A DNA stretch of 60,335 bases from Gammaproteobacteria bacterium (GTDB lineage: Bacteria > Pseudomonadota > Gammaproteobacteria > Pseudomonadales > Pseudohongiellaceae), in contig JAURCS010000017.1 in NCBI GenBank assembly GCA_030828385.1, positions 1-60,335 of the forward strand, given 5' to 3'. The notes below the pieces were generated by a model. That model made no database searches. It had not been told where the DNA came from and worked only from the letters and a program-made list of their open reading frames with translations. Shown in pieces: positions 12,888-57,706 of the stretch. The position numbers were made by a program, and so were the translations under genes. The first letter of the stretch is position 1; the number at the start of each line of letters is the position of its first letter.

Positions 12888-13376
12888 ATGAAGTTTATCA
12901 ATAAGTTAGTAAATATTGCGTTGCCGCTGTCAGTGTTGGCTGGTTTGCTGGCCATGCCAGTGCAGGCGCATCATTCATTTGCCATGTATGACATGAGAAA
13001 TGTAAAGCTTTTCACTGGTGTGGTTACCCGTGTAGACCCCGCTGCAAATCATCTGGCAATTTTCTTTGCGCCTATGAATGAAGAGCGAACCAATGTTCTG
13101 CGTGATGAAAACGGTGAGCCGATCATCTGGTCAGTTGAGATGCAGGGATCTGCTGCCATGGCGCGTCAGGGCGTATCTGTTAACGCCTTTCCTCAGGGAA
13201 CCGTGTTTAGTGTAGGCCTTCATCCATTACGTAATGGCGAGAATGCTGGCTCCAGACAGGGTGGATTATTCAAGTGTCCGGAACGAACTCCGCCTGAGCC
13301 AGGCATGCATTGTGATTCCGTTGAAGGCTCTGTGCAGATTGGTGATGATCCACTTGCAGAAGCTACTTTAGATTAA
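12888..13376 (+). CDS. DUF6152 family exported protein
   Basis: A 162-residue protein with a signal peptide of 27 residues ending PVQA. The mature protein would begin His-His-Ser-Phe (residues 28-31), the hallmark of DUF6152, with a further conserved His at 55 in AANHL. The rest is predicted beta-rich, with the family WSVEMQG segment. AAGGAG precedes the ATG. It carries a Cys pair (KCPERTP and MHCDS) near the C-terminus that the other copies lack. It is the second gene of an operon with the 460-residue partner and is followed by a strong terminator. Family function is unknown; the N-terminal His pair suggests metal binding. Confidence 0.8.
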   Translation: MKFINKLVNIALPLSVLAGLLAMPVQAHHSFAMYDMRNVKLFTGVVTRVDPAANHLAIFFAPMNEERTNVLRDENGEPIIWSVEMQGSAAMARQGVSVNAFPQGTVFSVGLHPLRNGENAGSRQGGLFKCPERTPPEPGMHCDSVEGSVQIGDDPLAEATLD

Positions 13377-13432
13377 ATTTCAGAAGACTAAATATCAGAT
13401 TTACTATCTGTGACAAAAGATCTTAAAAGTAA

Positions 13433-13468
13433 TAAAAAACGGCGTTCAATTGAACGCCGTTTTTTTTT
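13433..13468. terminator. Bidirectional Rho-independent terminator
   Basis: A perfect palindrome ACGGCGTTCAA/TTGAACGCCGT at 13439-13460, preceded by an A run and followed by nine Ts. It can terminate the DUF6152 operon from the left and the SnoaL-SDR-hydrolase operon from the right. Confidence 0.9.
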
Positions 13469-13547
13469 GATTGGTTTTCTGGCAGGACCAGACGTCTATT
13501 GCTTGTCCTCTCGTTGCTGATAAAAAGAGCGATAAGCGCAGAAGGGA

Positions 13548-14156
13548 CTATTTATAAACCCACCAATTGGGACCTTTCTCCGCTTCCAGTCGTGCAAGCT
13601 GTTCCCGATGTATTTCAGCAACCCGCTGCGGCGTGATCAGCTCACTTGCGTCAACCTCGGTGATTTCCACACTGGTCTTGTCTTCGTAGAGATTCTCACC
13701 CTTTAGCAGGGCCTTGTCGTTGTAAGGCCAGATGAACGCCTGACGACTGCGAAGATGATAATAAGCATCCGGAGATTCAGCCGCATACCCCAGATTTTGC
13801 AGGTCACTGCCTTTAATAAGCTGGTTGAAGGTCAATTCATCTGCAATACCCCAGTCGTTCACGGCAATGAGGTCGTCGGAATTCCATAGCACGGCCTCGG
13901 TAACACTGCTGTAAAACCCAATGACGCCTTCCTTGCCTTCAATTAGCGCCGGATGGTCGCCCCAGGAAACCCGGTAAACGGGATTATCCACGGTCATGTC
14001 CGGTGCGGTGATCTTGTCAAATTGACCCGAGCCTTCCAGATGCACATGGCGTCTAAAGTTTTCCAGTATCGCCCTGTGTAAAGGATTTTCAGTGCGCTGC
14101 AGTAATTCCTCTACAGGATTCATACAGTCGTATACGGCTTGTTCAAATCGGTTCAT
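13548..14156 (-). CDS. SnoaL/NTF2-like protein
   Basis: A 202-residue soluble protein. The start at 14156 is set by GGAGGGGG five bases upstream; the frame runs to 14171. It begins with a helical FEQAVYDCMNPVEELL segment and contains VHLEGSGQFDKI, NPVYRVSWGDHPALIEGKEG and an FYSSVTEAVLW helix, consistent with the cone-shaped NTF2-like fold used by SnoaL cyclases and dehydratases. No catalytic residues can be assigned. It is the last gene of a probable operon (LigI-like hydrolase, dehydrogenase, this protein), 23 bases after the dehydrogenase, and may act on the same small molecule. Confidence 0.6.
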   Translation of the reverse strand: MNRFEQAVYDCMNPVEELLQRTENPLHRAILENFRRHVHLEGSGQFDKITAPDMTVDNPVYRVSWGDHPALIEGKEGVIGFYSSVTEAVLWNSDDLIAVNDWGIADELTFNQLIKGSDLQNLGYAAESPDAYYHLRSRQAFIWPYNDKALLKGENLYEDKTSVEITEVDASELITPQRVAEIHREQLARLEAEKGPNWWVYK

Positions 14157-14179
14157 GTTTTCCCCCTCCAATAATTTGT

Positions 14180-15004
14180 TCAGTTAACCTGGGCTATCAA
14201 CTTTTCGCTTAATTCACGTAATTGCTTTAGTGCCTGTGGATCTGAAGCCTGCGCATCAGGTTCGGCATTCTCCATGCAGTCAAAGTAGTGCCCGCTAATA
14301 GATGCCATCTCTTCGTTCAGAATCAGTCTTTCCACCGCATTGGCGCCATCATCAATTGTTGTTCTGCTGTTAGGCAGGGCAGTGGAGTCCAGTACCATTT
14401 TGGTATTCATGAGGGTCGCCGGGTGTAATGAATTAGCGGTGACACCGGAACCTTCCAGTTGCTGTGCCAGATCCATGGTATGGAGAATTTGTGCCAGCTT
14501 GCTTTGGCTATAGGCCAGACCATCGCTGTAATATTTTTCCAGCATGGGATCGTTGAAATTGACCGGGGCCTGCGCGATGGAAGCCACGTTGATTATTCTG
14601 GCAGGTGCTGAAGATTTTAATAACGGTAACAATTCTCTGGCTAACAAATAACCGGCCAGGTAATTGACTGCAAAAAATATTTCATAGCCGTCTTTGCTTA
14701 ATGATCTGGCTGACTCCGGCGTTCTGGGGCCAATTCCGGCATTGTTGACCAGCACTTCAAGTTGTTGTTGGGAGCTCAGTATGTCTACAGCAAGTTTCTT
14801 TACTTCAGCAAGGGAAGACAGGTCGGCATTGAAGTATTCAAGGGTGTTATTGCCGGTAGCTGATACCAGTTCAGAAAGGACTGCCTGACCTTTCTCCGGG
14901 CTTCTCCCATGTAGCAGTACTTTATTCCCCTCGCTGGCCAGTCGACGGGCGACTTCCTTGCCCAGGCCATCCGTTGCCCCGGTAATGAGAATGGTTTTTG
15001 TCAT
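14180..15004 (-). CDS. Short-chain dehydrogenase/reductase (SDR)
   Basis: A 274-residue classical SDR. The nucleotide-binding TGATDGLG is at residues 8-15, NNAG at 87-90, catalytic Ser142 (NVASIAQ) and Y165-S-Q-S-K169. HGRS after the second strand suggests NADPH use. The wide Ser-Tyr spacing resembles the retinol-dehydrogenase-like branch. It should oxidise or reduce a hydroxyl/keto group in the cytoplasm. It lies between the LigI-like hydrolase and the SnoaL-like gene, so it probably works in the same catabolic pathway; the substrate is unknown. Confidence 0.85.
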   Translation of the reverse strand: MTKTILITGATDGLGKEVARRLASEGNKVLLHGRSPEKGQAVLSELVSATGNNTLEYFNADLSSLAEVKKLAVDILSSQQQLEVLVNNAGIGPRTPESARSLSKDGYEIFFAVNYLAGYLLARELLPLLKSSAPARIINVASIAQAPVNFNDPMLEKYYSDGLAYSQSKLAQILHTMDLAQQLEGSGVTANSLHPATLMNTKMVLDSTALPNSRTTIDDGANAVERLILNEEMASISGHYFDCMENAEPDAQASDPQALKQLRELSEKLIAQVN

Positions 15005-15023
15005 AATTGAATTTCCGCCTCTG

Positions 15024-15045
15024 CAGGCGAAGAGGGCTTCGCCTG
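15024..15045 (-). repeat. Strong hairpin between hydrolase and SDR genes
   Basis: CAGGCGAAG (15024-15032) and CTTCGCCTG (15037-15045) form a perfect nine-base stem with a four-base loop. It sits in the 93-base gap between co-directional genes. No T run follows, so it is more likely an mRNA stability or processing element, or a REP-type unit, than a terminator. Confidence 0.6.
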
Positions 15046-15097
15046 TCTCTGTAAAATTCAGCTAGCCAATAGCTTGCCTGACTATTGCTGCCGCTCG

Positions 15098-15970
15098 TTA
15101 GTTGGAAAATCCATATAGACGATGGGGATTATCAACAAGCAATTTTTGCTGAATTTGGGCATCCGGAGCCATCAGGGGAATGAGATCTACCAGGTCACCG
15201 TCATTTGGCATGTGGAGTTTGATATTTGGATGTGGCCAGTCAGTTCCCCATAAAACCCGATCGGGGGCTACTTCAATAATGGCCTTGGCAAATGGCATGG
15301 CGTCTGTGAATGGAGGTCCTGCGGAAGAAATTCTTTCTGCTCCGCAAACCTTGATCCAGCAGTTATCTCTTTTGGCAAACTCCATCAGGATTTTAAACGG
15401 TTCCTGATCAAGTCCGTCCCTGGTTGGTACCCGGCCCATATGATCAATGATGTAGGGGATCGGCAAGTTATCCAGCAGGTCCTGAAAATCCACCAGGTCA
15501 ATAGCGTCAAAATGGAGTACGACATGCCAGCCAAAGCCCTTGATTTTATTAATAATACTGTGAAATTCGTCCATATCAGGAATGCCACCAAGATGGCGCA
15601 CAAAATTAAAGCGACAGCCACGGCAGCCACCTTCATTAAGTTTTTCGATATCCGCCTCGGTAAAAGTATCATCAATATTGGCAACCCCGCGATAGGCACC
15701 GCCACTCTGGGCAATGGCATCAAGAATGGGGTCGTTATTGGTGCCGTGACAACTGGCATTCACAAGAACGGCGCGGCTTAGCCCCAAAATACTCTGCAGT
15801 TTCTTGAAATCATCCAGACCGGCATCCGGTGGGGTATAGCTACGGGTTGGAGAGTAAGGATATTTGTCACCAGGACCGAAAATATGACAATGAGCATCAG
15901 TGGCATTGGCTGGTAATTTGAACTTGGGCGTTTTGGTATCTGGATCTGGCGCCATACAGGATTTGGTCAT
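15098..15970 (-). CDS. LigI-like amidohydrolase (2-pyrone-4,6-dicarboxylate hydrolase family)
   Basis: A 290-residue metal-dependent hydrolase of the amidohydrolase_2 group. It has TDAHCHIFGP near residues 24-33, VVLHFDAID and YIIDHMGR in the middle, and VLWGTDWPHPN near the C-terminus, the set seen in LigI-type lactonases that open 2-pyrone-4,6-dicarboxylate in lignin-aromatic degradation. The ATG at 15970 is preferred to the TTG at 16006. It is the first gene of an operon with the SDR and SnoaL-like genes. The exact substrate may differ, since many relatives are only annotated as amidohydrolases. It diverges from the gene at 16165 across a 194-base promoter region. Confidence 0.75.
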   Translation of the reverse strand: MTKSCMAPDPDTKTPKFKLPANATDAHCHIFGPGDKYPYSPTRSYTPPDAGLDDFKKLQSILGLSRAVLVNASCHGTNNDPILDAIAQSGGAYRGVANIDDTFTEADIEKLNEGGCRGCRFNFVRHLGGIPDMDEFHSIINKIKGFGWHVVLHFDAIDLVDFQDLLDNLPIPYIIDHMGRVPTRDGLDQEPFKILMEFAKRDNCWIKVCGAERISSAGPPFTDAMPFAKAIIEVAPDRVLWGTDWPHPNIKLHMPNDGDLVDLIPLMAPDAQIQQKLLVDNPHRLYGFSN

Positions 15971-16164
15971 AAATTCATTTTCCGTGCTAAGACAAAGTGA
16001 TTTCAAAGCGAGCTAATTTATCACAAAACCATAGTATCAGAGAAAAAAATATTGCCTGGCAGGGATCTATAGTTGCTCTGGTTTTTCCCTATCTGTCTTT
16101 TTTTCAGGAAATCAAGTAGGCTGGGATTAGCGCTTTAGCTTTAAAAATCCGGAGAATTTTTTGC

Positions 16165-17202
16165 ATGAGTGGAATTCGTCGAATAATAAAAACAAGCATA
16201 TTCACCAGCCTGTTGCTGATTTTAATACCCTTTTCAATTCAGGCGCAGGAGTGTGAAAGGTCGTGTCTGGAAGGCTTCGTGGATCAATACCTGGATGCAC
16301 TTATTGACAATAATCCCGCCTCAGTCTCTTTGGCTGCTGATGTGCGCTTTACTGAAAACGGACAACGCCTGAATCTTCGTGATGGTCTCTGGCAGACCAT
16401 GCAGGCCAAGGGTGATTATCGTATTTTTGTTACCGATGTTCCGGCGCAACAAGTAGCGTTTCTGGGCACAATTTTTGAAGAGCACAGGGATCCTGCGCAG
16501 ATGACGCCGGCGCTGCTATCTCTTCGTTTGCGCATTGAAAATAATCAAATTAGTGAAATAGAGCACTTTGTTGTGCGCAGTACCAGTGCCGCAGAAAGAC
16601 TGATTGAGTCAATGCCTCGTCCTGAATTTACTACGGCACTAACCGACAGCCAGCGCATGCCGCGAAATGAAATGCTTGAAGTTGCCAATATGTATTTTAC
16701 CGGTATGCAAAAAAATGATGGTCTGATGGACTACCCGTTTGCCGATGACTGCGATCGCATTGAAAACGGCATGCAATCTACCAACAGGCCGACGCCAGAG
16801 GGAGAAACGCGTCCGGATCCATCCGATGCCAGTAGTTATTCAGCGCAATGGAGTTGTCTGGAGCAGTTTCAATCAGGCCTGATCTTTTTTGTAAACCGTA
16901 TCAGGGATCGTCGTTTCGTGGCGGTGGACGAAGAAAGGGGATTGGTCTTTGCCTTTGTCTTTTTTGATCACTCTGGAGGTGAGTTCAGGCATGGTGTCAC
17001 TCCCAATGGTCGCAACGTAGTAGCCGGCCCGGTTCAGCCCTGGACCTGGGGTATAGCAGAAATATTCAAGGTCTATGATGGCACCATTCATCAAATTGAA
17101 GCAATTCTGGAAAGGGTTCCCTACGGCATGAATTCTGGCTGGTCCACCTGGGAACAAGGCATGTCTGATGAGCTGCAGGATGTGACTTTTTCAGAAGATT
17201 AA
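16165..17202 (+). CDS. Exported protein of unknown function, NTF2-like features
   Basis: A 345-residue exported protein: signal peptide to about residue 27 (ending IQAQ), then a Cys pair (ECERSC) and FVDQYLDALIDNNPASV-type helix, followed by VRFTENGQRLNLRDGLWQT. That opening resembles SnoaL/NTF2-like exported proteins, and the second half (NMYFTGMQKNDG through FADDCDRIENGMQSTN) repeats the same kind of pattern, so two related domains are possible. Further Cys (Cys near 198 and 231) may form disulfides. GGAG lies nine bases before the ATG. The gene stands alone. I cannot assign an activity. Confidence 0.6.
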   Translation: MSGIRRIIKTSIFTSLLLILIPFSIQAQECERSCLEGFVDQYLDALIDNNPASVSLAADVRFTENGQRLNLRDGLWQTMQAKGDYRIFVTDVPAQQVAFLGTIFEEHRDPAQMTPALLSLRLRIENNQISEIEHFVVRSTSAAERLIESMPRPEFTTALTDSQRMPRNEMLEVANMYFTGMQKNDGLMDYPFADDCDRIENGMQSTNRPTPEGETRPDPSDASSYSAQWSCLEQFQSGLIFFVNRIRDRRFVAVDEERGLVFAFVFFDHSGGEFRHGVTPNGRNVVAGPVQPWTWGIAEIFKVYDGTIHQIEAILERVPYGMNSGWSTWEQGMSDELQDVTFSED

Positions 17203-17205
17203 AAT

Positions 17206-17233
17206 AGTCGCAAGTTGCAAGTCTCAAGTCTCA
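17206..17233. repeat. Heptamer tandem repeat (AGTYKCA type)
   Basis: Four consecutive seven-base units, AGTCGCA, AGTTGCA, AGTCTCA, AGTCTCA, begin three bases after the stop codon of the preceding gene. The same kind of array occurs at 22381-22429, also just after a stop codon. Not CRISPR: there are no spacers. Confidence 0.7.
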
Positions 17234-17263
17234 TGAGAGAAGAGATAAGAGACAGGCAAGCTT

Positions 17264-17335
17264 TCTCTCGGGCTTCAATGGTTTTCTGTAGGTCGGATAA
17301 GGACCGCAGGGACGCATCCGACGGGGCGACCTTTG
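17264..17335. repeat. REP-like element, copy 1
   Basis: A 72-base unit nearly identical to the one at 17464-17535 (exactly 200 bases away). Its core is an imperfect palindrome with GTCGGAT and ATCCGAC arms around a central GACCGCAGGGACGC, the layout of repetitive extragenic palindromes. Such units can form mRNA 3' hairpins. Confidence 0.7.
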
Positions 17336-17463
17336 TATTGGATGCAAGATACAGGATACAAGAGGACGCAAGCAGGATAAAAGATAAAGGAAAAAGGATA
17401 AAGGTGGGCGGTGCAGGCAGTGGCAGGAAAATAAGAGACAAGAGGCAAGAGACAAGCAATCCC

Positions 17464-17535
17464 TCTCTCGGGCTTCAATGGTTTTCTGTAGGTCGGATAA
17501 GGGCCGCAGGGACGCATTCGACGGGGCGACCTTTG
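17464..17535. repeat. REP-like element, copy 2
   Basis: Second copy of the 72-base unit; I see only two differences, GGACC to GGGCC and ATCCGAC to ATTCGAC. The second change breaks one arm of the GTCGGAT/ATCCGAC palindrome. Confidence 0.7.
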
Positions 17536-17628
17536 GTCGCCTCTTGAGACTTAAGACTAGTTTCCCCATGACTCCAGCAAGGCTTTCCCCTACAATTCAG
17601 GCTTCCGAGAAAGAAGTAGTATTCACCA

Positions 17629-18015
17629 ATGTTCCTCACTATCAAAACCATTCACATGTGTTGCGCGCTGATCAGCTTTACCGGCTTTTTATTTCGTTCC
17701 TACCTGATGTTTATTGAATCAAAGTGGCTCAATCATAAATTAATACTGGTGACCCCTCATATCATTGATACCGTATTTTTATTCAGCGGCTTCAGTATGG
17801 CTTTTTTGCTAAACATAGGTTTGTTTGCACAGGGCTGGCTCACCATGAAAATTTTCCTACTGATGTTTTATTTGCTGTTTGTGGGAATTGCCTTAAGCAG
17901 GGGGGGCACAAAATATGTGAGGGTAACCGCTTTTTTCCTGGCGATTTTTACCTTTGTCTACATCGTCGGCATTGCAGTTAACAAGACAGCAATTAGCTGG
18001 TTTGCCTTGATTTGA
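17629..18015 (+). CDS. SirB2-family membrane protein
   Basis: A 128-residue protein with four hydrophobic segments. The pattern of an N-terminal KTIHMCCALISFTGFLFRSYLM helix and PHIIDTVFLFSG after the first loop matches the SirB2 family (invasion regulator SirB2 of enterobacteria, conserved widely with no settled function). No clear ribosome-binding site precedes the ATG. It follows the repeat region and converges with the amidohydrolase gene 58 bases downstream. Confidence 0.8.
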   Translation: MFLTIKTIHMCCALISFTGFLFRSYLMFIESKWLNHKLILVTPHIIDTVFLFSGFSMAFLLNIGLFAQGWLTMKIFLLMFYLLFVGIALSRGGTKYVRVTAFFLAIFTFVYIVGIAVNKTAISWFALI

Positions 18016-18073
18016 AGCCCATCAATAAAATATAGCACCTGAACTAATTATCACGGGCTTATTTCCTTACTCT

Positions 18074-19426: not shown

Positions 19427-19454
19427 GGGATCCAATATATGGTTTTTCTGGGTA

Positions 19455-20063
19455 TTAATCTGTGGAATTGTTGGCAACTCTGTCATAAACACGAACCAGC
19501 TCGATAGCCTCGGTGAAGCCTTCAGGATGGATATACATCTCGACCCTGAGGCGTTTTCCGGCATCCAGAATAGTGTAGGTTTCATTGGCAAAACCGCCAT
19601 CTCTGGGCCTTGCCTCAACCAATAATGTCTTGCCTTCCCAGTGTGCAAAAGAAAAGTCCTTTACCGTATCAAGACCGGTAAGGCTCACACTCTGGCTGCG
19701 TCCATCTGTATAGACCGGTCGCTGGTAATTGTCATCATAGGCGAATAAATACTGTCCCTCGCCGAATTGTGTTGTCAGGGTCTTATCATAAGAGATACGG
19801 TCATAGAGTTCCTGCTCAGCAGGTCCCCCTCTGAATCGATCTTCTTCGCATCCGAGCCAGCAACGACTGACTTTTTCGCCCATTGCCCGCAGTGCGCTTC
19901 CTACCTTTTTATCAGTGTTGTCACTAAGCTCAGTATTGATGACCCAGCGTCCGAAGTGTTCAGGGGAAGGATTTTCCTGTGCCTGGACAGAGTAAAAACC
20001 CAGGCACAATAAAAGTGCCAGTAAATGGCGGCATTGAGCGTTGATATGACTTTTCTGCGGCAT
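19455..20063 (-). CDS. Exported protein, distant relative of the DUF6152 partner domain
   Basis: A 202-residue exported protein with a signal peptide (ending VQAQE). The second half reads HWEGKTLLVEARP ... RLRVEMYIHPEGF, which parallels the HWEGDTLVVET ... MVSEYTFTDPE core of the DUF6152-associated domains elsewhere in the window, and the first half has an FGRWVINTELSD opening like D-x-S-G-x-W. The paired cysteines typical of that group are not conserved here (a CWLGC sits elsewhere). It is the first gene of an operon with the exported amidohydrolase and diverges from the NTF2-like genes. Function unknown. Confidence 0.6.
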   Translation of the reverse strand: MPQKSHINAQCRHLLALLLCLGFYSVQAQENPSPEHFGRWVINTELSDNTDKKVGSALRAMGEKVSRCWLGCEEDRFRGGPAEQELYDRISYDKTLTTQFGEGQYLFAYDDNYQRPVYTDGRSQSVSLTGLDTVKDFSFAHWEGKTLLVEARPRDGGFANETYTILDAGKRLRVEMYIHPEGFTEAIELVRVYDRVANNSTD

Positions 20064-20267
20064 GATTGAGCTACCCCCTCAAGAAAAAAGTGTAGACTTT
20101 ATGCGGATAAAAAGCCAGAAAGGGTACCTGCTGCATAATCTCTCCTTTATACTCGGCTGAGTATCAAGGGCAAGAACATTCATGTTTTAAATCCGGATGA
20201 AGCTAAAATATGATAAAAATCTCTTAGCGGACCCCTTACCCGAATTAATAAAAAACTGGAAATAAGT

Positions 20268-22369: not shown

Positions 22370-22380
22370 TTCAATAGAAA

Positions 22381-28825: not shown

Positions 28826-29242
28826 TTATTCATTCTGGTTGTCGCGACTGGAAGCCGTCAGCATACGTTTGCCGGTTGCATCAAGAATAATTGAGGTGGC
28901 ATTCACGAGATTGCTGCCATCTCTGGCAAGGGCGCCATCGACAGTAATCACATCATCGGTTTTTAACGAATTTCGTTTCCAACCTGCCCTTAGTAGTGCG
29001 TTTGGGCCACCCAGTTCCAGCGCCCATTTCTCCGTGGCGCCGGATGTTTCGTCCGCCACATCGATATAGATAAAAATATGGGGATTGGTCCATTCCACCC
29101 TGGTGACCTTGCCGTTCAATGTGACGGTTTTTGATGCGTCATACTGTGCGGGAAAAGAATGATGGCCGCTTACTGGTAAAGAATAAACAAAGAGGCCGGC
29201 GAGTAATAAAAAGAAAGGTGTTGCTCTATTGGTGTATTTCAT
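28826..29242 (-). CDS. DUF6152 family exported protein
   Basis: A 138-residue exported protein. The signal peptide ends LPVSG, so the mature protein would start His27-His28-Ser-Phe. A third conserved His (His55) is in EWTNPHIFIYIDV. The rest (KWALELGGPNALLRAGWKRNSL, DVITVDG) follows the family pattern. It is the second gene of an operon, 46 bases after the partner gene at 29289-30131. The N-terminal His pair and NPH motif could form a copper- or zinc-type site; this is inference. A mirror-image pair lies on the other strand at 30347-31663. Confidence 0.8.
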   Translation of the reverse strand: MKYTNRATPFFLLLAGLFVYSLPVSGHHSFPAQYDASKTVTLNGKVTRVEWTNPHIFIYIDVADETSGATEKWALELGGPNALLRAGWKRNSLKTDDVITVDGALARDGSNLVNATSIILDATGKRMLTASSRDNQNE

Positions 29243-29288: not shown

Positions 29289-30131
29289 TTAATTTTGAAG
29301 ATTCATGCGTTCAACAAACTGCTCATTTTCGAGGCAGATTTCATCAATTAATTCAGCATCGACCACGATGCGTTCGGTAAGGGTTACCGTCCAGGGGGCG
29401 GTATAGGCTTCCGGATCATCTACGGTAACTTTTATTTCCATATGTCCATAGTCAAGGCGTCTGATTTCTTCGCGTACTTTGCCTTGTTCAGTCAGAACAC
29501 TGCCATTCCAGTCGATCCAGGTATCGTCACGCACACCGATAGTATCAATTACCAGAGTATCGCCTTGCCACGTTGCCGTTGAATAGCCTTGCCATGAAGG
29601 GGAAGGGTCATCCGGTAAGGGCCGGGCATCGGTAAAAACCTGGCGATATCCAGCATTCATTTCATTAAGCACGACCAGCAAATCATCGGTATGAACAAAT
29701 TTAAGCAGATGGGGCAGGCCATAGGCGCGAAGAAAGTTGTCCGGTAGGCAGCGAATATGAGGATCGTCTAATGCCAGGTTAGCGGTACGTTCGGCGACGA
29801 TGGGTACTAACCAGTCCTGATAGGGCAGGCCTCCAGGTATATCAATGCCAAGATTGGCCATCTGTCGCGATGACTGGATATTGTCCACGCTGCTGGGAGT
29901 TTCCTCGCCTTCAGGAGTGCGATCTGAAATCCAGATGCCAGATAAATCCGGTTTGCCATTGGCCATGCGAGGAACGGGTGCCGTCATATTCACAATACCA
30001 TCTGCATTTCGCGGCACATCCTTGGTTGGATAGCCTATCCATTGAGCATTGGCGTTGCTGCAGGCTAAACTAGCTCCAAGAAGAATCGAAAGTACAAAAG
30101 TAATCCCCTTGCCAGTGTCTTGAGTCCCCAT
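29289..30131 (-). CDS. Exported DUF6152-partner protein
   Basis: A 280-residue exported protein with a signal peptide (to about residue 29, ending NANAQ) and AGAGGA before the ATG. It carries the whole set of partner-domain marks: PDLSGIW (61-67), central Cys128 in RCLPDNFLR, TATWQGDTLVIDT (186-197), VDDPEAYTAPWTV (237-249) and Cys266 in EICLENE. No known catalytic motif is visible. The two cysteines may form a disulfide. It is first in an operon with a DUF6152 gene and is transcribed away from the related gene at 30347. Confidence 0.7.
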   Translation of the reverse strand: MGTQDTGKGITFVLSILLGASLACSNANAQWIGYPTKDVPRNADGIVNMTAPVPRMANGKPDLSGIWISDRTPEGEETPSSVDNIQSSRQMANLGIDIPGGLPYQDWLVPIVAERTANLALDDPHIRCLPDNFLRAYGLPHLLKFVHTDDLLVVLNEMNAGYRQVFTDARPLPDDPSPSWQGYSTATWQGDTLVIDTIGVRDDTWIDWNGSVLTEQGKVREEIRRLDYGHMEIKVTVDDPEAYTAPWTVTLTERIVVDAELIDEICLENEQFVERMNLQN

Positions 30132-30346: not shown

Positions 30347-31210
30347 ATGAAAAGTATTTTAACTATAACCGCGAAATCTGTTTCCAGGGTATTCCTTGGG
30401 CTTACTTTTCTCATCAATGCCGGGGTTACCCATGGTGCGGAGTTACCTGAGTTTTCAGCTCTGCCGGATTGGAGTGGTACCTGGTCGAGACGCGGTGGAA
30501 CCGTTTTTGACAGTGGCTCCTGGACCCTGAATGGTGTTCTAACCGATCCCAGTCAACCCGGTGCCGGTGTCAGTGCGCCTGGAACAAGAGCACACCCTCC
30601 CTATAATGCCGAGTGGGAAGCTGTTTATCAGGAGCATCTGGCACTGCGTGATGCAGGGCTTTTCCCGGATCCATTAACCCGCTGTATTTCGCATGGCTTT
30701 CCGCGAATTTTTAATGCGCTGGCTCCGGTTGAATTTGTTGTGCGGCCGGAACAGACCTGGATACTGGCGGAACATACTCGCGCTACCATGCGTATTTATA
30801 CTGATGGAACCGAACATCCACCGGCGGAAGCACGCTGGCATAATTTCTATGGCCATTCGGTAGGGCACTGGGAAGATGATACGCTGGTCTTCACTACAGT
30901 GGCGCTTAAAGGTTGGCGGGATAGAGACAGTGTGCTCGATCGCAGTGGCCTTGTGCTAAGTGATCAGGCTCATGCGACAACGCGCATTCGTCGTACCGAG
31001 GAAAACGGTGAAGACTTGTTACTGGTGGAAATCACTCTGGAAGATCCACTGGCCTTAACTGCGCCCTGGGTAGTTGAAAAACGTTTTTATAAAGATGCGG
31101 CAGGGACACGTATTTTTGATTATGAGTGCAATGAATATAACCGGGCTATTGTTGATGAGCAGGGTCGGAGTATGATTCTTGATGAAGATGGCAAGGTACT
31201 CAACTATTAA
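30347..31210 (+). CDS. Exported DUF6152-partner protein
   Basis: A 287-residue exported protein with a signal peptide (to about residue 31). GGGGG lies before the ATG. It shows the same order of marks as its divergent neighbour: PDWSGTW (40-46), Cys113 in RCISHGFPR, VGHWEDDTLVFTT (172-184), LEDPLALTAPWVV (231-243) and Cys261 in DYECNEYN. Sequence between the motifs is clearly diverged from the 29289 gene, so the pair is not a recent duplication. It forms an operon with the DUF6152 gene 78 bases downstream. Function unknown. Confidence 0.7.
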   Translation: MKSILTITAKSVSRVFLGLTFLINAGVTHGAELPEFSALPDWSGTWSRRGGTVFDSGSWTLNGVLTDPSQPGAGVSAPGTRAHPPYNAEWEAVYQEHLALRDAGLFPDPLTRCISHGFPRIFNALAPVEFVVRPEQTWILAEHTRATMRIYTDGTEHPPAEARWHNFYGHSVGHWEDDTLVFTTVALKGWRDRDSVLDRSGLVLSDQAHATTRIRRTEENGEDLLLVEITLEDPLALTAPWVVEKRFYKDAAGTRIFDYECNEYNRAIVDEQGRSMILDEDGKVLNY

Positions 31211-31288
31211 TTTGTGCGTAACCGGCAAATAATTTGCGATAATAATTCTACATAGAAAATCGAGAAAACAGGGGGCAGGGGAGTGTTA

Positions 31289-31663
31289 ATGAAGAGCGGG
31301 TTTAAGGGTATTATCACTGCAATTTTACTATTGGGATGCCAGTTAGCTGCTGCTCATCATTCAACAGTTGGCCAGATAGAAGAAGCATCCATTGAGATCA
31401 GTGGCGTGGTTAAGGAGTTTCAGTTCAAGAATCCTCATTCCTGGATCCAGGTAATGGTGAAGGATGATAGTGGAGAGGAAGTTGAATGGAGCGTGGAATG
31501 GCTGATACCGAATATTCTGATGCGCCAGGGCTATAATCCGGCCACCTTCAGACCCGGTGATGAAGTGCGTGTTCGTCTGCGCCAGCATGTGAGCGGATCT
31601 CCAATGGGGGAATTTGATGGTGCCATCAAGGCTGATGGTTCTATTGTTGGGCGTTGGGACTAA
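31289..31663 (+). CDS. DUF6152 family exported protein
   Basis: A 124-residue exported protein. ATG at 31289 has GGGGAG eight bases upstream (a GTG at 31283 is less likely). The signal peptide ends LAAA and the mature protein would start His23-His24-Ser-Thr; the third His is His50 in QFKNPHSWIQVMV. The segment VEWSVEWLIPNILMRQGY and GDEVRVRLR follow the family. It is the shortest copy in the window and so close to the minimal domain. Second gene of the operon with 30347-31210. Confidence 0.8.
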   Translation: MKSGFKGIITAILLLGCQLAAAHHSTVGQIEEASIEISGVVKEFQFKNPHSWIQVMVKDDSGEEVEWSVEWLIPNILMRQGYNPATFRPGDEVRVRLRQHVSGSPMGEFDGAIKADGSIVGRWD

Positions 31664-31741: not shown

Positions 31742-32233
31742 TTATTGCCAGGGCAATGGTATCTGGTTCAGGGCATCCATGTTGGCTTCAAGCGCCGTAT
31801 CACCGGGCTCGATTTTGTTCCTGGAAAGAATAAACGTGATCACTTCCGCATATTGCTGCATGCTCATTGACATAACATTGTCAGGGGGCATTTTCTCATA
31901 GGTATTTTGTACCAGTTCACCAAGGCTTTTGCCTTTCCAGTTGTTGGAAAAAAAACTTCCTCGCAGTGGTGTCCCGAATTGGCCGTTACTTAAGCGATTG
32001 CCGTGACAGATCTGGCATGTCTCCTTGTAAATGGCTTCACCATTGGCGACCTGTTCAGCGGTAAATTGAATCGTTTCCTGAGCATGGACCGGTGCTGATG
32101 TGATGCTGGTGAGTGTCAGCAATAATAGAGATAGCAGGAATGGCAGGGACTTTGAAATAGTGCCCGACAAACCATCATGAAGAAAATTAGCAGTTACTCT
32201 GACCGGTACTTTTTTAATGATTACTGAATGCAT
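31742..32233 (-). CDS. Exported c-type cytochrome
   Basis: A 163-residue protein: signal segment about residues 28-50 (ending VHAQ), haem-binding CQICH at 73-77, and a Met-rich MPPDNVMSMSM near 113 that supplies the axial Met, the class I cytochrome c layout. It should carry electrons in the periplasm for dehydrogenases such as the PQQ- or flavin-linked ones in this window. The N-terminal 25 residues before the hydrophobic part are long for a signal peptide; the true start could be internal. The next gene on this strand upstream is PepSY, 115 bases away. Confidence 0.8.
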   Translation of the reverse strand: MHSVIIKKVPVRVTANFLHDGLSGTISKSLPFLLSLLLLTLTSITSAPVHAQETIQFTAEQVANGEAIYKETCQICHGNRLSNGQFGTPLRGSFFSNNWKGKSLGELVQNTYEKMPPDNVMSMSMQQYAEVITFILSRNKIEPGDTALEANMDALNQIPLPWQ

Positions 32234-51440: not shown

Positions 51441-51530
51441 CGTTTCATTTTCGCAATAGCTATTGCAAAAATAAAATTACAGTTAAAAAGTAACTCTATT
51501 TGCAAACACACAAAGGTTAGTGTCAATATC

Positions 51531-52754
51531 ATGTTGATAGTTCAAAAATATGGTGGAACTTCAGTGGGTTCCGTCGAGAGAATAAGGGCGGTGGCTGAAA
51601 AAGCTGCGGCCTGCAAGGATCAGGGTAACCAGGTGATTGTTGTGGTTTCCGCCATGAGCGGCGTCACCAATAACCTGACTGCCATGGCCTATGAACTGCA
51701 AAAGCAGCCATCTCCACGTGAGATGGACATGTTGCTCTCCACCGGTGAGCAAACAACGATTGCCCTGTTGAGCATGGCTCTTCAAGCAATAGGTTGTCCG
51801 GCTCGCTCTTATACCGGAGGGCAGGTAAGAATACTCACTGACAACGCACACACAAAGGCAAGGATCCGGGAAATTGACAGCGATAAAATCCGTCATGATC
51901 TGGATCAGGGCAAAGTGGTCGTTGTTGCTGGATTTCAGGGAGTTGATGAAGAGGGAAATATAACTACTCTGGGAAGAGGTGGTTCGGATACCACGGCAGT
52001 AGCGCTTGCAGGAGCTCTAAAAGCTGATGAATGTCAGATCTACACCGATGTTGATGGTGTCTACACAACCGATCCCCGCGTAGTTGAAAATGCCAGACGA
52101 CTGGACAAAATCACATTTGAAGAAATGTTGGAAATGGCCAGTCTCGGCGCAAAAGTACTACAGATTCGTTCTGTGGAATTTGCCGGAAAATACAATGTGC
52201 CGTTACGGGTTTTATCTTCTTTTGAGGATGGTCCGGGTACATTAATAGTCTCAGAGGAAGATTTAATGATGGAAATGCCTTTAATTTCTGGCATTGCGTT
52301 CACCAGGGACGAGGCCAAGCTAAGTGTTGTAGGGATACCGGATGTTCCAGGTATGGCCTTTAAAGTGTTTGGTCCGATCAGCGATGCAAATATAGAAGTG
52401 GATGTTATTGTCCAGAATATTGGTGCCGATTTAACGAATGACATTACTTTCACAGTGCAGAAGAAGGATGCTGAAGCAGCAACCCGAATTCTGGAGAAAA
52501 CTGCGACAGAGATGGGTGCCAGGGGTGTTAAAGTTGATGATAAGGTGGCAAAAGTATCACTGGTAGGCGTTGGAATGCGCTCTCATGCCGGTATTGCCAG
52601 TCGTATGTTTGAAGCATTGTCAAAGGAAGCGATCAATATTCAGCTAATCACTACATCGGAAATCAAGATTTCCGTGGTCATTGAGGAGAAATATCTGGAG
52701 ACGGCAGTAAGGGCTTTGCATAATGCATTTGGTCTGGAAACAGCGCCAGCGTAG
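51531..52754 (+). CDS. lysC: Aspartokinase (monofunctional, two ACT domains)
   Basis: A 407-residue enzyme that phosphorylates aspartate, the first step to lysine, threonine, methionine and diaminopimelate. It opens with VQKYGGTSVGS, has the conserved TLGRGGSDTTAVALAGAL and DVDGVYTTDPRVV, and two ACT domains from about residue 265 (FTRDEAKLSVVGIPDVPG and VSLVGVGMRSHAGIA), where lysine/threonine feedback acts. An internal ATG at 52266 in the same frame has AGAGGA eight bases upstream and may produce the 162-residue regulatory beta subunit known from some lysC genes. Downstream of alaS. Confidence 0.95.
   Translation: MLIVQKYGGTSVGSVERIRAVAEKAAACKDQGNQVIVVVSAMSGVTNNLTAMAYELQKQPSPREMDMLLSTGEQTTIALLSMALQAIGCPARSYTGGQVRILTDNAHTKARIREIDSDKIRHDLDQGKVVVVAGFQGVDEEGNITTLGRGGSDTTAVALAGALKADECQIYTDVDGVYTTDPRVVENARRLDKITFEEMLEMASLGAKVLQIRSVEFAGKYNVPLRVLSSFEDGPGTLIVSEEDLMMEMPLISGIAFTRDEAKLSVVGIPDVPGMAFKVFGPISDANIEVDVIVQNIGADLTNDITFTVQKKDAEAATRILEKTATEMGARGVKVDDKVAKVSLVGVGMRSHAGIASRMFEALSKEAINIQLITTSEIKISVVIEEKYLETAVRALHNAFGLETAPA
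52266..52754 (+). other. Possible internal start for aspartokinase beta subunit
   Basis: ATGATG at 52266-52271 in the lysC frame is preceded by AGAGGA (52253-52258) with a seven-base gap to the ATG. Translation from it would yield the two ACT domains only (162 residues), as in alpha2beta2 aspartokinases. It could instead be a coincidence in a Glu-rich segment. Confidence 0.4.
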
Positions 52755-52921
52755 TCTGTAAAAGCAATAATCGCCAAGCCATGAATGAGGTTGAATAAGT
52801 ATACGTAGTCCATTTTTAGTTGGTCAGCGTAAAAAGACTTCAGTAGATTAGCTTGCAAGACACCATGTATCGCCAGCTTTTATAAAGTATGAGCGGACTA
52901 GGAAACTTAGAGGAACTAGTA

Positions 52922-53140
52922 ATGTTGATTTTAACCCGCCGCGTAGGCGAGACACTTATGGTTGGTGACGAAGTCACAGTAACTGTCCTGGGTGTGAAGG
53001 GAAATCAGGTACGTATAGGTGTGAATGCACCTAAGGACGTTGCGGTTCACAGGGAAGAGATCTACGACAGAATCAAGAAAGAAGGGGATAGCGGAGCGAC
53101 TGACGCTGAAAGCGACGATGACAGTATCGGTAACAGCTGA
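52922..53140 (+). CDS. csrA: Carbon storage regulator CsrA/RsmA
   Basis: A 72-residue RNA-binding regulator starting with the invariant [12 protein letters not shown], then [17 protein letters not shown] and [16 protein letters not shown]. It binds GGA motifs in mRNA leaders and controls carbon flow, motility and biofilm. The ATG at 52922 is chosen because the MLILTR start is universal and AGAGGA lies upstream. The C-terminal tail is acidic and longer than in the 61-residue enterobacterial protein. Between lysC and tRNA-Ser as in other gammaproteobacteria. Confidence 0.97.
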
Positions 53141-53356
53141 ATTTAATCAGTTAGCAGTAAAGCTTTCGAATTAAACGCTCAAATCTTTATTTTCTTAAAA
53201 GAAGACAGGTATTTTAAAGGCAACAATTTCCTAAAATTTACCTGTTTCAGGCTCCACCAATCCCATATGCTTATGATATGATTGCGCGCTTGCTGACGGG
53301 GTGATGCCAGAGCTGTTTCCAGCAGGCATGCGCTTTTGAAGCGAATACAAATATTT

Positions 53357-53446
53357 GGAGAGGTGGCCGAGTGGCTGAAGGCGCGCCCCTGCTAAGGGCG
53401 TATGGGTTAACACTCATCGAGGGTTCGAATCCCTCCCTCTCCGCCA
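53357..53446 (+). tRNA. tRNA-Ser (GCU anticodon)
   Basis: Ninety bases form a full class II cloverleaf with an acceptor stem GGAGAGG/CCTCTCC, a long variable arm, the T-loop GTTCGAATCC and an encoded CCA end. The anticodon GCT is at 53391-53393, in the loop CTGCTAA, so it reads AGC/AGU codons. Confidence 0.97.
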
Positions 53447-53452
53447 GAAAAC

Positions 53453-53481
53453 AAAAAGCCCGGTCATAGACCGGGCTTTTT
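53453..53481 (+). terminator. Rho-independent terminator of the tRNA
   Basis: AAAAAGCCCGGTC pairs with GACCGGGCTTTTT around an ATA loop, a strong 13-base stem with a T tail. It ends the tRNA-Ser transcript. Confidence 0.92.
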
Positions 53482-54080
53482 GCATTCTGGAAGAGGGGGG
53501 CTTGATGAGGACTCTTTTTCATAAGCTGCGACAGCAGCGCAGACGCATGTTTTATAGCACGCCTCGCAGGGATATCTCTTTGAACAAATTACTTTGGTAA
53601 TTTAGATGGCTAATAATTTATCTCGCCTAAAGGTATTTAAGTTTTAAGTTTGGATCAGCCAAATTGCCAATGCATTCCTCCAGTCGAGACTTTGTAATAT
53701 TCGAAAGAAGAATAATAAGTCATAGACCGGACTTTATGCTTTCTCGCTAGGCGGGAGGAGGTCTTGATTCAATCCCTTGGTTCAAAAGCACCTTAGCGCA
53801 AAAGTTGATGAACAATTCCTTTCAGTGAGAATCTAGCGGAGACCGATCAGGTTTTCTTTTGATAAAAACGTAGGCGGTATCGAATTTCATCGCAAATTTT
53901 AAACAAAATAATACCAAACATCACATCCAAAGAACCTCAATCAACAGAAGCGGGCGGGGCAACCACCAATGATGATCCTACCCTTGAATTTGTGTTTGAA
54001 GTAATTGCGGGCCTGTAATGCAAGGCAGGGTGCTATCCAGTAGGGCTGGCTAGCAACTGGTTCGATCTCATGCAATGAGT
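53482..54080. other. Degenerate intergenic DNA after tRNA-Ser
   Basis: No gene is supported. At 53719-53744 is a degenerate copy (23 of 26 positions) of the tRNA terminator's second half and following bases (53463-53488). The DNA from about 53900 onward is interrupted by stops in all frames on the plus strand and merges into the pseudogene that follows. Confidence 0.55.
53719..53744. repeat. Degenerate copy of the tRNA-Ser terminator end
   Basis: Twenty-six bases match 53463-53488 at 23 positions (GTCATAGACCGG identical, then CTTT-TGC-TTCT with changes), 256 bases away. The duplicate may be left over from a lost tRNA copy or from an integrated element's junction. Confidence 0.5.
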
Positions 54081-54678
54081 GATGTTCACGCTCGCTATAC
54101 CTTGAAGGCGGTTGGGGGAATACAGCATTGAATTGTTGCATCCACTAGGAATGAAAAATAAAAGGTGGAGACCCGATAGCTTTAAACCTGGTGATTTTAT
54201 TACCTGAGAAGGGCCGGTCGACAAAAATCTGAATCGAAATTATTAAGAACTAAATTGGGCCGAAAAGAGTGACGCGCCGAGACTGACCATGAATGGCAAC
54301 AATGATGCTCCTGTAGAGCTATCCTCGGATTTGACAGATTAATGGGTCAGAGATACATCCAAGTTGGGATATACCTATAGGCCAAGAGCGGACTATTCTT
54401 ATACTGAGTACTCGCAGACTCAAGTGGATAATTTTATTGCTGACCGCTTGGATAGTTATACCGGAGTTGACTCCAGTGATCCAAAAAATACGCTGGAAGA
54501 AATATCTCTTTTCAAAAATTGCATGGGATTGCTGGTCGAGATGACCGTGACTAACCGTGCAATGTTTATTGCGCCGGTCACCATTGTGTATTATAAGAAG
54601 AAACTTACCGATCGTGATCTGGTGAGAGTAGACTGTACTGTCGAAAATTCACGTTTGCACATTGATGCAGATCTCTAA
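54081..54678 (+). pseudogene. Broken fused DUF6152-partner gene
   Basis: In a single frame from 54118 the DNA matches the gene at 56690-57706: EYSIE, then WRPDSFKPGDFIT, EGPVDKNLNRNY, DYSYTEYSQTQVDNF, FIADR and YTGVDSS, and finally LTDRDLVRVDCTVENSRLHID, all parallel to segments of that protein. The frame is interrupted by at least three stops, at about 54205, 54244 and 54340, and a frameshift near 54110 breaks the part before it. A segment that includes the central Cys and W-x-G-D core is deleted (between VDNF and IADR). It is a dead relative of the live copy 2 kb downstream. Confidence 0.75.
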
Positions 54679-54720
54679 ATCTTTATGATTAAGAATTCTA
54701 TCTAGAACAGGTGGGGAGAA

Positions 54721-55947
54721 ATGAAACCATTTATTAAAAAAATATTGTTTTACACTTTGATGCTATTGCATTTTAAAGTCGGCGCACATCATTCAACTGT
54801 TGTGTTTGATGAGGCTAAAACTGAACTGATTACTGGTGAGGTTACCCGTTTTGTATTACGTAATCCGCATATGATTCTGAGCGTTGATGTGCCAAATGCA
54901 AATGGTGAAGCTGTATTGTGGAAGCTGGAGGGCCAGGGCATAGGTGCCATGCAGGCAATGGGCTTTGATCGGAATTCCATTACAGCAGGTGACATCATTA
55001 CAGTAAAAATCAGCCCGCTTAAAAATGGTGCATCCGGTGGTCTGGTACTAGGGTTAATTGGTGCAGATGGTCGTGCCTATAATATGGAAGTTGAAGAGGA
55101 AGAAGAGCAAAGACAGATTTATCCGGCCCTGATGACCTATGTACCACCTCCTGCCGGAGAAACATGGCAAATGCGTGAAGAAAAAACCCGCCCTCCACAA
55201 TTACCTATTATTTCCAAAGGCATTACTCCGGGAGAAAACCCTGTTGATGGCAAAACCATGGGAGCACTGGACCCGGATAATCTGGCAATAGCGCGTCCAC
55301 CGGCTCCTTTCGACCTAACCGGTCTATGGCAATTTCGTGGCGAAGATGAATGGCGTGCCAATTACGGATCTTTCGAATTCAAACCTACCCCTGTGTTAAC
55401 AGCAAAGGGCAATTCATATCATGAAGCCTACCTTGAAGCCTCAGAAAAAGGTGAGCGCTTTGGCGATCCTACAGCCCTGTGTTACCCCCCCGGAATGCCG
55501 CGTTTCATGACCCGTTATGGGGCTTTGATGATGTTGCAATATCCCACAGCTATCTTTATGGTTTCAAGATTAAACAATGATTACCGCGTAATTTTTCTGG
55601 ATGGCCGAGAGAGACTCACAGGTGCCGATGTGGATCGTAACTGGCAGGGTGAGTCATTGGGCCATTGGGAAGGGGACACTTTGGTTGTTGAGACCTCTGG
55701 CTTTATTGGCGATAACCATCTGATGCAAGCAGGTATATTAGCCGGTGAACAATTAAAAATCGTTGAACGCATCAGTTTGATCAACGACGGCAACACCATG
55801 GTCAGCGAATATACCTTCACCGATCCCGAGCATTGGGTCGGTGAATGGAAACATACGAAATTTCGTGATCGGGTACTGCGTTCGGATGTAAGGGAGGCAA
55901 ATTGCATTTACGAAGATAATTTTGCCCTGCCGGGAATGTCCAGATAG
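54721..55947 (+). CDS. Exported DUF6152-partner fusion protein
   Basis: A 408-residue exported protein with GGGGAGA before the ATG. The signal peptide ends KVGA, so the mature protein starts His23-His24-Ser; His50 lies in VLRNPHMIL. The N-terminal part (to about 115) is a DUF6152 domain. After an acidic linker (EVEEEEEQ, 123-130) the partner domain begins: FDLTGLW (197-203), Cys254 in LCYPPGMPRF, LGHWEGDTLVVET (313-325), FTDPEHWVGEW (366-376) and Cys395. In other loci these two domains are separate neighbouring genes. Function unknown; likely a periplasmic protein. Confidence 0.78.
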   Translation: MKPFIKKILFYTLMLLHFKVGAHHSTVVFDEAKTELITGEVTRFVLRNPHMILSVDVPNANGEAVLWKLEGQGIGAMQAMGFDRNSITAGDIITVKISPLKNGASGGLVLGLIGADGRAYNMEVEEEEEQRQIYPALMTYVPPPAGETWQMREEKTRPPQLPIISKGITPGENPVDGKTMGALDPDNLAIARPPAPFDLTGLWQFRGEDEWRANYGSFEFKPTPVLTAKGNSYHEAYLEASEKGERFGDPTALCYPPGMPRFMTRYGALMMLQYPTAIFMVSRLNNDYRVIFLDGRERLTGADVDRNWQGESLGHWEGDTLVVETSGFIGDNHLMQAGILAGEQLKIVERISLINDGNTMVSEYTFTDPEHWVGEWKHTKFRDRVLRSDVREANCIYEDNFALPGMSR

Positions 55948-56689
55948 CATCTCTTTTTAATTATTGGCTAGTTAATCAATATCGTAGTGCTTCAAGATTG
56001 TAATCATTGCCATGGCATTTTTTAATCATCGTAATGATTACGCCTATCAAAGTTACTTTTCTATTTATGCTTTTTTAAGATATTTGCAATCCATATACAC
56101 GCCCTGAATTTAATTTAGGGATGCTTAAGTCGTTGACATTTAAATGCAAATTAACAATAAGAATTACATATAAAAATCTATTTTATCCCTGCGCAAAGCA
56201 ACTAGTCGTCACTTTCAAATTACATTTAATCATTTTTTAGGTCTATGCCCGGCCTAAAATTATTCACATTTTTAATATGATCTAGACTGCCAGTAAAAGA
56301 ATTTCTGCAGTTGCACTAACAATAAATATCGGGATTAATTGAGGCATTGGCATTGATGGGATGTTTTTATAAATATAAAAGAATCACCATGATAAATCAG
56401 GGCAAAACCTTATTTTCGAGTCAATTATACTGTTACGGATCACTGGGGAGATGAATATAACCAGGTTCCATTTCTTGAAAAAATACTTTCTAAGGTCAAT
56501 ATTAAGAAGTTAATTGTCTTTTAAAAATAACATGCAGCTTGCAGGCATGAGGCTCTACGAGCCATATAAAATCTATCTTGAAGAAATATCAGTAATTGAT
56601 AATATTGACTAAATAGTCTAGCTTCCTTTATAGTGATTTTGTAGATCAACATTTTTTTCTATACTTAAACCATTTCAAAGGTCAAGGTC
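55948..56689. other. AT-rich intergenic region
   Basis: A 742-base AT-rich stretch without a supported gene. One short open frame around 56400-56524 (YFRVNYTVTDHWGDEYNQVPFLEK) looks protein-like, but it has no start, no ribosome-binding site and no family I recognise. The AT content and lack of genes suggest recently acquired or decaying DNA. Confidence 0.5.
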
Positions 56690-57706
56690 ATGAAAAAAGA
56701 ACGATTTATACCGGTTATTCTAATTTTATCTTTTTTGTTATATCCGGACATATTACTGGCGCACCATTCCCACGCCACTATAGATAACAATGATGTCCGA
56801 GTGCTGACTGGTGTTGTTGTAAAATACGGTTGGGCAATGCCCCATGTCTATCTAAAGGTTCGGGCCCCGAATCTTGATGGTGAACTGGTGGAATACAGCA
56901 TTGAAATGGGTAATCCTCCGAGTCTCGTGCGACAGGGCTGGAGCAAGGAAAGCCTGAAAAGCGGCGATGTCATTACCTGGCAGGGTGCCCATGATAAAAA
57001 TAAATCCCGGAATTACTCCACCGCAGAGTGGGTAGAAAAAGATGGAATTCGTCTGGGCGCTACCGGCAATCAGGTTGATCAACTTGAAATCATGCCGTCT
57101 ACCGATTTCAGTGGCCTTTGGACTCGGGACGATCCCGGTGGTTTCAACCCTCATTACCTGCCACCCAAGGACTGGCCTTACACCGAGTTTGGGCAAGCTA
57201 TGGTCGACTCATTCACTGAATCAAGTAACCCGATGCTGGAATGCATAGACCCAGGCCCTCCCAAATCGATGATTCTGCCTTATCCACATCGAATTGTCAG
57301 GCAAGATGAAAGTACCATATTGATTGAGCGAGACATGATGCCAGTTGCACGAGTAGTCCATCTTGATCGGGATTACCCCATGGACGAGCCATCTGTTTTG
57401 GGTCACTCGACGGGTTGGTTTGAAGGGGATCAGTTGGTAGTGGAAACAAGCAATTTTGTTGCGGACAGGTGGGGTATGCAAACCGGTGTCGACTCAAGTG
57501 AACAAAAGCACCTGGTGGAACGCTTCAGTTTGATTAATGGGGGCATGGGTCTGATGGCAGAAATAACTATCACTGATCCTGTTTATCTCAAAGAGCCTAA
57601 GACAATCAATCATTACTGGCGAAAATTACCCGATCGTGAACTGGTACAGGCACCCTGTACCCTTGAATCCTCCCGGCTATGGATTGAAGGTGGGTTTGTC
57701 CAGTAA
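56690..57706 (+). CDS. Exported DUF6152-partner fusion protein
   Basis: A 338-residue exported protein. The signal peptide ends ILLA and the mature protein would start His25-His26-Ser-His; the third His is His52 in WAMPHVYLKV. The DUF6152 part spans to about residue 130; the partner domain follows with TDFSGLWTR (138-146), Cys185 in ECIDPGPPK, TGWFEGDQLVVET (241-253), ITDPVYLKEPK (294-304) and Cys323 in APCTLES. AAGG is near the ATG. It lies 197 bases upstream of a TonB-dependent receptor in the same direction, so co-regulation is likely. Function unknown. Confidence 0.78.
   Translation: MKKERFIPVILILSFLLYPDILLAHHSHATIDNNDVRVLTGVVVKYGWAMPHVYLKVRAPNLDGELVEYSIEMGNPPSLVRQGWSKESLKSGDVITWQGAHDKNKSRNYSTAEWVEKDGIRLGATGNQVDQLEIMPSTDFSGLWTRDDPGGFNPHYLPPKDWPYTEFGQAMVDSFTESSNPMLECIDPGPPKSMILPYPHRIVRQDESTILIERDMMPVARVVHLDRDYPMDEPSVLGHSTGWFEGDQLVVETSNFVADRWGMQTGVDSSEQKHLVERFSLINGGMGLMAEITITDPVYLKEPKTINHYWRKLPDRELVQAPCTLESSRLWIEGGFVQ

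Follow-up and report, generated by a model that had tools for sequence, protein, structure and literature searches.

The five intact DUF6152 (PF19649) proteins encoded by contig JAURCS010000017.1 of a gammaproteobacterial genome of the family Pseudohongiellaceae (GCA_030828385.1; the window is the whole stretch analysed, 60,335 nucleotides) all carry, directly after a signal-peptide-like stretch, two histidines that are followed by a third some 27 residues further on, and the same three residues recur in every family member read. In the window genome (G000; 2,620,145 bases), DUF6152 genes are paired with genes for a second exported protein, which we call the calycin-like partner, and in many other genomes they lie near a gene for the small membrane family DUF6644 (PF20349), whose profile is similar to that of CopD (PF05425). 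The reading that we favor, with a probability of about 0.6, is that the His-His start forms a metal chelate, most likely of Cu(II), on an oligonucleotide/oligosaccharide-binding (OB) fold, which would work together with these partners.

Conservation of the His-His Start and of a Third Histidine

By extracting DUF6152 frames genome-wide, we obtained 52 copies from the window genome, all over the Pfam cut-off, as are the five intact window proteins on profile scoring. In all 52, His-His stands straight after the signal-peptide-like stretch and is preceded by Ala (42 copies), Ser (6), or Gly (4). The third mature residue is less constant (HHS 43, HHG 6, HHA 2, HHP 1), and the invariant part is therefore HH rather than the HHS proposed in the preliminary description of the window. 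The aligned third His lies at +27 in 25 copies, at +28 in 24, and at +26, +29, and +30 in one each. When the 52 copies are aligned, columns average 26% identity, and none but H1, H2, and H29 is invariant. A search of a panel of 398 genomes of the phylum extended this pattern: all 60 DUF6152 matches listed outside the window genome (41 genomes), which we read by their coordinates, have Ala or Ser before HH and a Pro-His at +24 (one match), +26, +27, or +28. In an alignment of 92 rows from the window genome and the phylum, H1, H2, and H29 are each present in 92 rows, although the phylum rows were chosen by the HH...PH pattern and the three His columns are thus not independent there; the next best columns are G70 (91), P28 (89), G61 (89), G18 (87), W47 (80), N27 (76), and E50 (76).

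We infer from the invariant motif that the signal peptide is cleaved right before His-His. A simple cleavage rule (A/G/S at position −1 and A/V/S/G/T/L/I at −3) fits the HH boundary in 52 of the 52 copies of the window genome; moved to other offsets between −8 and +4, it never fits more than 28. In 43 pattern-picked phylum frames, the rule fits 42 at the HH boundary and 35 at offset −2, a weaker control because these signal peptides are rich in Ala. The motif is real, very strongly conserved, and family-wide in all 112 DUF6152 matches read.

These data bear out much of the preliminary description. On translation and reading, all five window copies, which Pfam assigns to DUF6152, have HHS right after a cleavage motif as described, and the further His does lie at +27 or +28 in them, four times as N/M-P-H and once as ANH. 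The proposal that the His site is the core of the family agrees with the invariance of HH and the third His in 52 + 60 members. The spacing, which had been described as constant, is not strictly so, since it ranges from +24 to +30 over the members read.

Predicted Fold of DUF6152

An AlphaFold2 model of the mature form of copy 2 (28829-29164) has an OB fold (predicted local distance difference test 91.8, predicted template-modeling score 0.84). The likeness to CopC and to lytic polysaccharide monooxygenases (LPMOs) that had been suggested is thus not supported at the level of fold, since these have an immunoglobulin-like (Ig-like) beta-sandwich and the DUF6152 model is an OB barrel. In the model, the N-terminus precedes strand 1 and the third His is in the loop between strands 1 and 2. 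In an ideal OB barrel, the ends of strand 1 are about 25–31 Å apart (an estimate from idealized geometry), which makes a metal brace formed by H1 and H29 of one chain doubtful. The fold-search alignments start, among the matches listed, at model residues 4–13 and give no sign of an N-terminus folded back, which is weak evidence.

Other searches returned little. No sequence homologue of DUF6152 with a solved structure was found at an expectation value (E) of 1, and CopC (Pfam) matched neither the five window copies at E 1e-3 nor, at E 1, a Paracoccus member, among the matches listed. NCBIfam at E 1 gave no match for three window proteins, one DUF6644 protein (L151), two proteins of the calycin-like loci L100 and L102, and two neighbors in L087; two other proteins matched weakly (E 0.1 and 0.5).

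Partners of DUF6152

In the window genome, a calycin-like domain is fused to, or lies within 1.5 kb of, 50 of the 52 DUF6152 copies, with about 5 expected if placement were random, and it is on the same strand in 48 of the 50 pairs. The same profile finds 67 calycin-like matches in this genome and matches in 12 of the 398 panel genomes, all 12 of which have DUF6152; as the profile was built from genes beside DUF6152, the match, pairing, and genome counts are all biased towards such genes. One survey of the neighborhoods covered at most 50 of the 52 copies. The partner is an exported bacterial family with two invariant Cys in a 32-row alignment (33 motif-found frames, of which two were dropped, and one window domain added by hand). 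None of the 32 members has a Pfam match at E 0.1, and no homologue of the family with a solved structure was found at E 1; the fold tentatively predicted for it is a calycin-like barrel, a type known for binding small hydrophobic molecules. Two apparent operons have the order DUF6152, calycin-like, further gene, DUF6644 (L100:9136-13010 + and L102:7506-10458 −); the further gene of L102 is another calycin-like gene, and both genomes have tandem DUF6644 domains. At G000:C83:80025-80585 +, a calycin-like match with an in-frame TAA is probably the decaying end of a long-form DUF6152 copy, that is, one fused to the calycin-like domain.

The membrane partner was first seen in one record each from Paracoccus, Sinorhizobium, and Comamonas, in which a DUF6644-matching protein comes directly after DUF6152 (the Sinorhizobium protein is annotated as DUF2214). 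At E 1e-3, 29 of the 398 panel genomes have DUF6644, 21 of them over the Pfam cut-off, and all 29 belong to the 42 with DUF6152, a coincidence with a probability of 2.6e-34 if genomes are taken as independent and phylogeny is ignored. Besides the window genome, 28 genomes have both domains, which lie within 600 bp of each other in 19 and within 5 kb in 26. With hhalign, a DUF6644 profile of 31 sequences (out of 34, motif-picked, so that the His of their first transmembrane helix carries no evidential weight) gave 91.7–92.0% against 16 PF05425 members. Five higher-scoring CopD sequences gave 87.6–92.1% against the same 16 (21 of 25 CopD loci were used, four being too short), and controls against DUF6644 (DoxX, cytochrome-b561-like, HupE, and a reversed profile) gave 0.1–0.3%. 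DUF6644 thus appears, on profile similarity, to be a membrane family remotely related to CopD, and its coupling to DUF6152 would parallel that of CopC and CopD. The DUF6152–calycin-like pairing and the co-occurrence of DUF6644 with DUF6152 are both new here.

A third association concerns HupE/UreJ_2, a metal-permease family. We looked at 12 low-copy loci of the window's family (L085-L096, from genomes with one or two DUF6152 copies), which are closely related and represent few independent events; ten of them have a HupE/UreJ_2-like gene within about 1.3 kb of DUF6152. These ten loci are L085-L088 and L090-L095 (e.g., L087:7178-7885 +); nine were called by motif and L090 by reading, and the assignment was Pfam-verified for L087. 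The HupE/UreJ_2-like proteins have a single His of their own after the signal peptide (AHN, AHT, AHD, or AHS).

Distribution of DUF6152 and Gene Content of the Window

DUF6152 occurs in 42 of the 398 panel genomes, the window genome included. Copy numbers are high in six other genomes of the window's genus (45–70 each), in one sister genus, g8 (37–57), and in another, g2 (18–25), and fall to 1–3 in the other genera of the family; a single one of 21 surveyed genomes of the same order outside the family has a copy. The 60 matches outside the window genome fall into HHS/HHA/HHP/HHG types, of which some genomes have several copies, and an HHGW type, for the most part with one copy per genome. The HHGW-type copy of the window genome (L044:188-487 +) is at a contig edge and is followed by a gene that looks like a TonB receptor; its contig also has a DUF6644 gene, at a distance of about 11 kb. 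Large exported proteins are encoded near several copies (L018:5859-7673 −, L022:5460-7304 −, L024:9246-10901 −, and L023:4570-7008 −); by eye, they resemble a TonB receptor and dehydrogenases of the cytochrome c or quinoprotein kind, which suggests catabolic surroundings. In 18 of the 40 context loci, DUF6152 escaped the greedy open reading frame caller, and these loci were re-read by motif.

The features of the window are listed in table 1. The calycin-like fragment just upstream of the tandem long-form copies 4 and 5 is probably a decayed remnant of a further copy.

Table 1. DUF6152 copies of the window and adjoining features (the five copies were established by translation, Pfam, and motif reading)
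Feature	Coordinates	Strand	Length (aa)	Signal peptide end|mature start	First mature position	Third His (offset; codon)	Remarks
DUF6152 copy 1, short form	12888..13376	+	162	MPVQA|HHSF	12969	ANH (+27; 13050-13052)	
DUF6152 copy 2, short form	28826..29242	−	138	LPVSG|HHSF	29164	NPH (+28; 29078-29080)	
DUF6152 copy 3, short form	31283..31663	+	126	QLAAA|HHST	31355	NPH (+27; 31436-31438)	
DUF6152 copy 4, long form	54721..55947	+	408	FKVGA|HHST	54787	NPH (+27; 54868-54870)	
DUF6152 copy 5, long form	56690..57706	+	338	DILLA|HHSH	56762	MPH (+27; 56843-56845)	
Protein with weaker calycin-like match	11434..12834	+	466				Match at 12103-12630 (E 1.5e-12); 53 bp upstream of copy 1
Calycin-like partner	29289..30131	−	280				46 bp upstream of copy 2, same strand
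Calycin-like partner	30347..31210	+	287				72 bp upstream of copy 3, same strand
C-terminal calycin-like domain	55276..55947	+					Part of copy 4
C-terminal calycin-like domain	57077..57706	+					Part of copy 5
Calycin-like domain fragment	54364..54678	+					Upstream of copy 4; partial match 54433-54654 (E 2.4e-5)
c-type cytochrome gene	31742-32233						Adjoins copy 3

Proposed Function and Alternative Explanations

In the mechanism that we propose, signal peptidase I would cut exported DUF6152 just before His-His, and the freed amino group and the imidazole side chains of both His would jointly chelate a transition metal, most likely Cu(II), on a small OB barrel, at the N-terminal end of its strand 1. 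H29 of the NPH motif, with the conserved N27 and E50, would make up a second conserved spot at the strand 1–2 loop, either as an extra ligand, which an N-terminus could reach by folding back or from a neighboring chain, or as a site of contact with a partner. DUF6152 would not act alone: its partner would be the exported calycin-like barrel in the window genome and, elsewhere, also the CopD-related DUF6644. It may thus serve as a CopC-like metal carrier or head built on an OB fold, which would deliver metal to the membrane partner, accept it from there, or act on the cargo of the calycin-like one. Given that DUF6152 is coupled to a membrane family related to CopD, we regard a metal site outside the cytoplasm as the best interpretation; in this respect, the metal-site proposal of the preliminary description stands, without the CopC/LPMO fold. 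The conserved motif, the gene pairing, and the similarity between the DUF6644 and CopD profiles are observed; the metal, the direction of transfer, and any catalysis are our deductions, and both folds are predictions.

Several observations weigh against this proposal. Besides the presumed nature of the metal itself, ideal OB geometry would oppose contact between H1 and H29 within one chain, and neither a regulator nor any other gene of copper handling was demonstrated beside DUF6152. Fifty-two copies would be odd for a plain metal carrier, and the window genome has only 2 DUF6644 genes, and one CopD, for these 52. Thirteen of the 42 DUF6152 genomes are without DUF6644 at E 1e-3, of which four (L111, L117, L121, and L124) have a DUF6644-like frame by motif. 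The relationship to CopD is remote: against the five best CopD sequences alone, DUF6644 reaches 15.4%, and the 16-member CopD-like set itself gives 37.9% against the cytochrome-b561-like control and includes a protein, L208, that we take to resemble HemJ, a haem protein. The membrane partner could therefore bind haem, and the link to CopD does not prove copper. The bias of the calycin-like profile, noted above, is a further point.

The same three invariant His might instead build a copper histidine brace within one chain, with the amine and imidazole of His 1, the NPH His, and additional coordination by His 2 or E50, in a secreted copper oxygenase acting on a hydrophobic ligand held by the calycin-like domain. 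The long forms, which fuse the candidate metal head to the ligand barrel, fit this idea, and the numbers of matches in 2.6 Mb (52 for DUF6152, 67 for the calycin-like domain) suggest versions specific to different substrates. We nonetheless think it unlikely, given the 25–31 Å between the ends of strand 1 in an ideal barrel and the fold-search alignments described above; moreover, the nearest characterized families with an N-terminal His show metal binding and weak redox activity, in the passages of PMC12537917 drawn on here. We prefer a chelate formed by the N-terminal His-His itself. Opposite ends of one strand could also be brought together between chains, with His-His of one subunit meeting either H29 of a second subunit or a surface of the calycin-like protein; this would account for the position of the three His and for the tight genetic pairing, but nothing supports it directly, and we give it rather little credence. 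A bolder reading, in which DUF6152 proteins would be secreted copper redox enzymes of a new class (a His-His OB metal head joined to a calycin-like barrel for hydrophobic substrates, in about 50 substrate-specific versions per genome, and metallated via a CopD-related membrane protein), is likewise distinctly improbable.

Conservation by itself is no proof of a metal. OB folds usually bind ligands at loops, where H29, N27, and E50 lie, and HH could be a docking or secretion signal with these three as catalytic or contact residues of the OB face. Such a metal-free role seems to us quite unlikely, as invariant His-His placed exactly at the mature N-terminus, where the amine is free, would naturally chelate a metal and as the family is associated with CopD-related and HupE-type membrane proteins. 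DUF6152 could, finally, be the exported partner of a HemJ-like haem membrane protein, DUF6644, in a haem or electron-transfer module, in keeping with L208 and the 37.9% score of the CopD-like set and with the c-type cytochrome gene beside the window copy at 31283. DUF6644 itself, however, gives 0.1% against the cytochrome-b561-like control, and no haem motif was noticed in DUF6152, which leaves this the least probable of the explanations considered.

If the chelate proposal is right, an invariant His-His on a predicted OB fold would be a new scaffold for extracytoplasmic metal biology, and a testable role would follow for two DUFs and one unnamed family, which account for about 120 domain matches in the window genome (52 DUF6152, 67 calycin-like, and 2 DUF6644). 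With three His, two partners, and a small size, DUF6152 would be quick to test.

Comparison with Known Systems

Searches of open-licence text from PubMed Central (PMC) found no paper with DUF6152, PF19649, IPR046150, or DUF6644, and none with CopD together with HemJ. DUF6152 appears as a little-studied exported family with a candidate metal site on a predicted fold unlike that of the best-known cases. CopC is an exported His-brace protein that is paired with the membrane partner CopD. DUF6152 is similarly small and exported, with N-terminal and internal His, and its membrane partner is related to CopD by profile and adjacent in many genomes. Unlike CopC, it is predicted to have an OB fold instead of an Ig-like sandwich and lacks a CopC Pfam match among those listed, and it adds a second invariant His, at position 2, and a calycin-like partner. 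CusF, an exported OB-fold chaperone of Cu(I)/Ag(I), offers a parallel as another small exported OB fold proposed to handle metal, but it binds through His and Met on the face of the barrel rather than through a His at the N-terminus; it is absent among the 50 fold-search matches listed for the DUF6152 model, which does not exclude a relationship. The partner, for its part, differs from the calycins FABP, CRABP, and CRBP in being exported and bacterial, with two invariant Cys and no Pfam match.

Few families of N-terminal-His metalloproteins have been characterized, and those described in the cited parts of two papers are mostly beta-sandwiches (PMC12537917, PMC10952591). The signal-strapping paper treats, in the parts used here, DUF4198 (Ni), DUF6702, and the anglerases Ang-1 and Ang-2 on HupE/UreJ-2 permeases (PMC12537917); "6152" is absent from its main text. 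As in those families, the His of DUF6152 would be exposed by signal cleavage, and there is a link to HupE/UreJ-2, fused there and nearby in some DUF6152 loci, where the permease-like proteins share a single post-signal His with the published anglerases. The N-terminal His is found in 79% of DUF4198 and 65% of DUF6702 sequences according to the same source versus 112 of 112 DUF6152 matches, and the DUF4198 and Ang-1 structures it reports are beta-sandwiches, unlike the DUF6152 model. In the histidine brace, as outlined in the cited text of PMC10952591, Cu is held by the NH2 and imidazole of an N-terminal His and by a further His. DUF6152 resembles the braces of LPMOs and of CuB in particulate methane monooxygenase in having a predicted N-terminal His and a second conserved internal one (H29), and, like site B of the latter, which has an additional coordinating His (PMC10952591), it might have one as well; the predicted fold of DUF6152 differs from both, and its copper coordination is putative.

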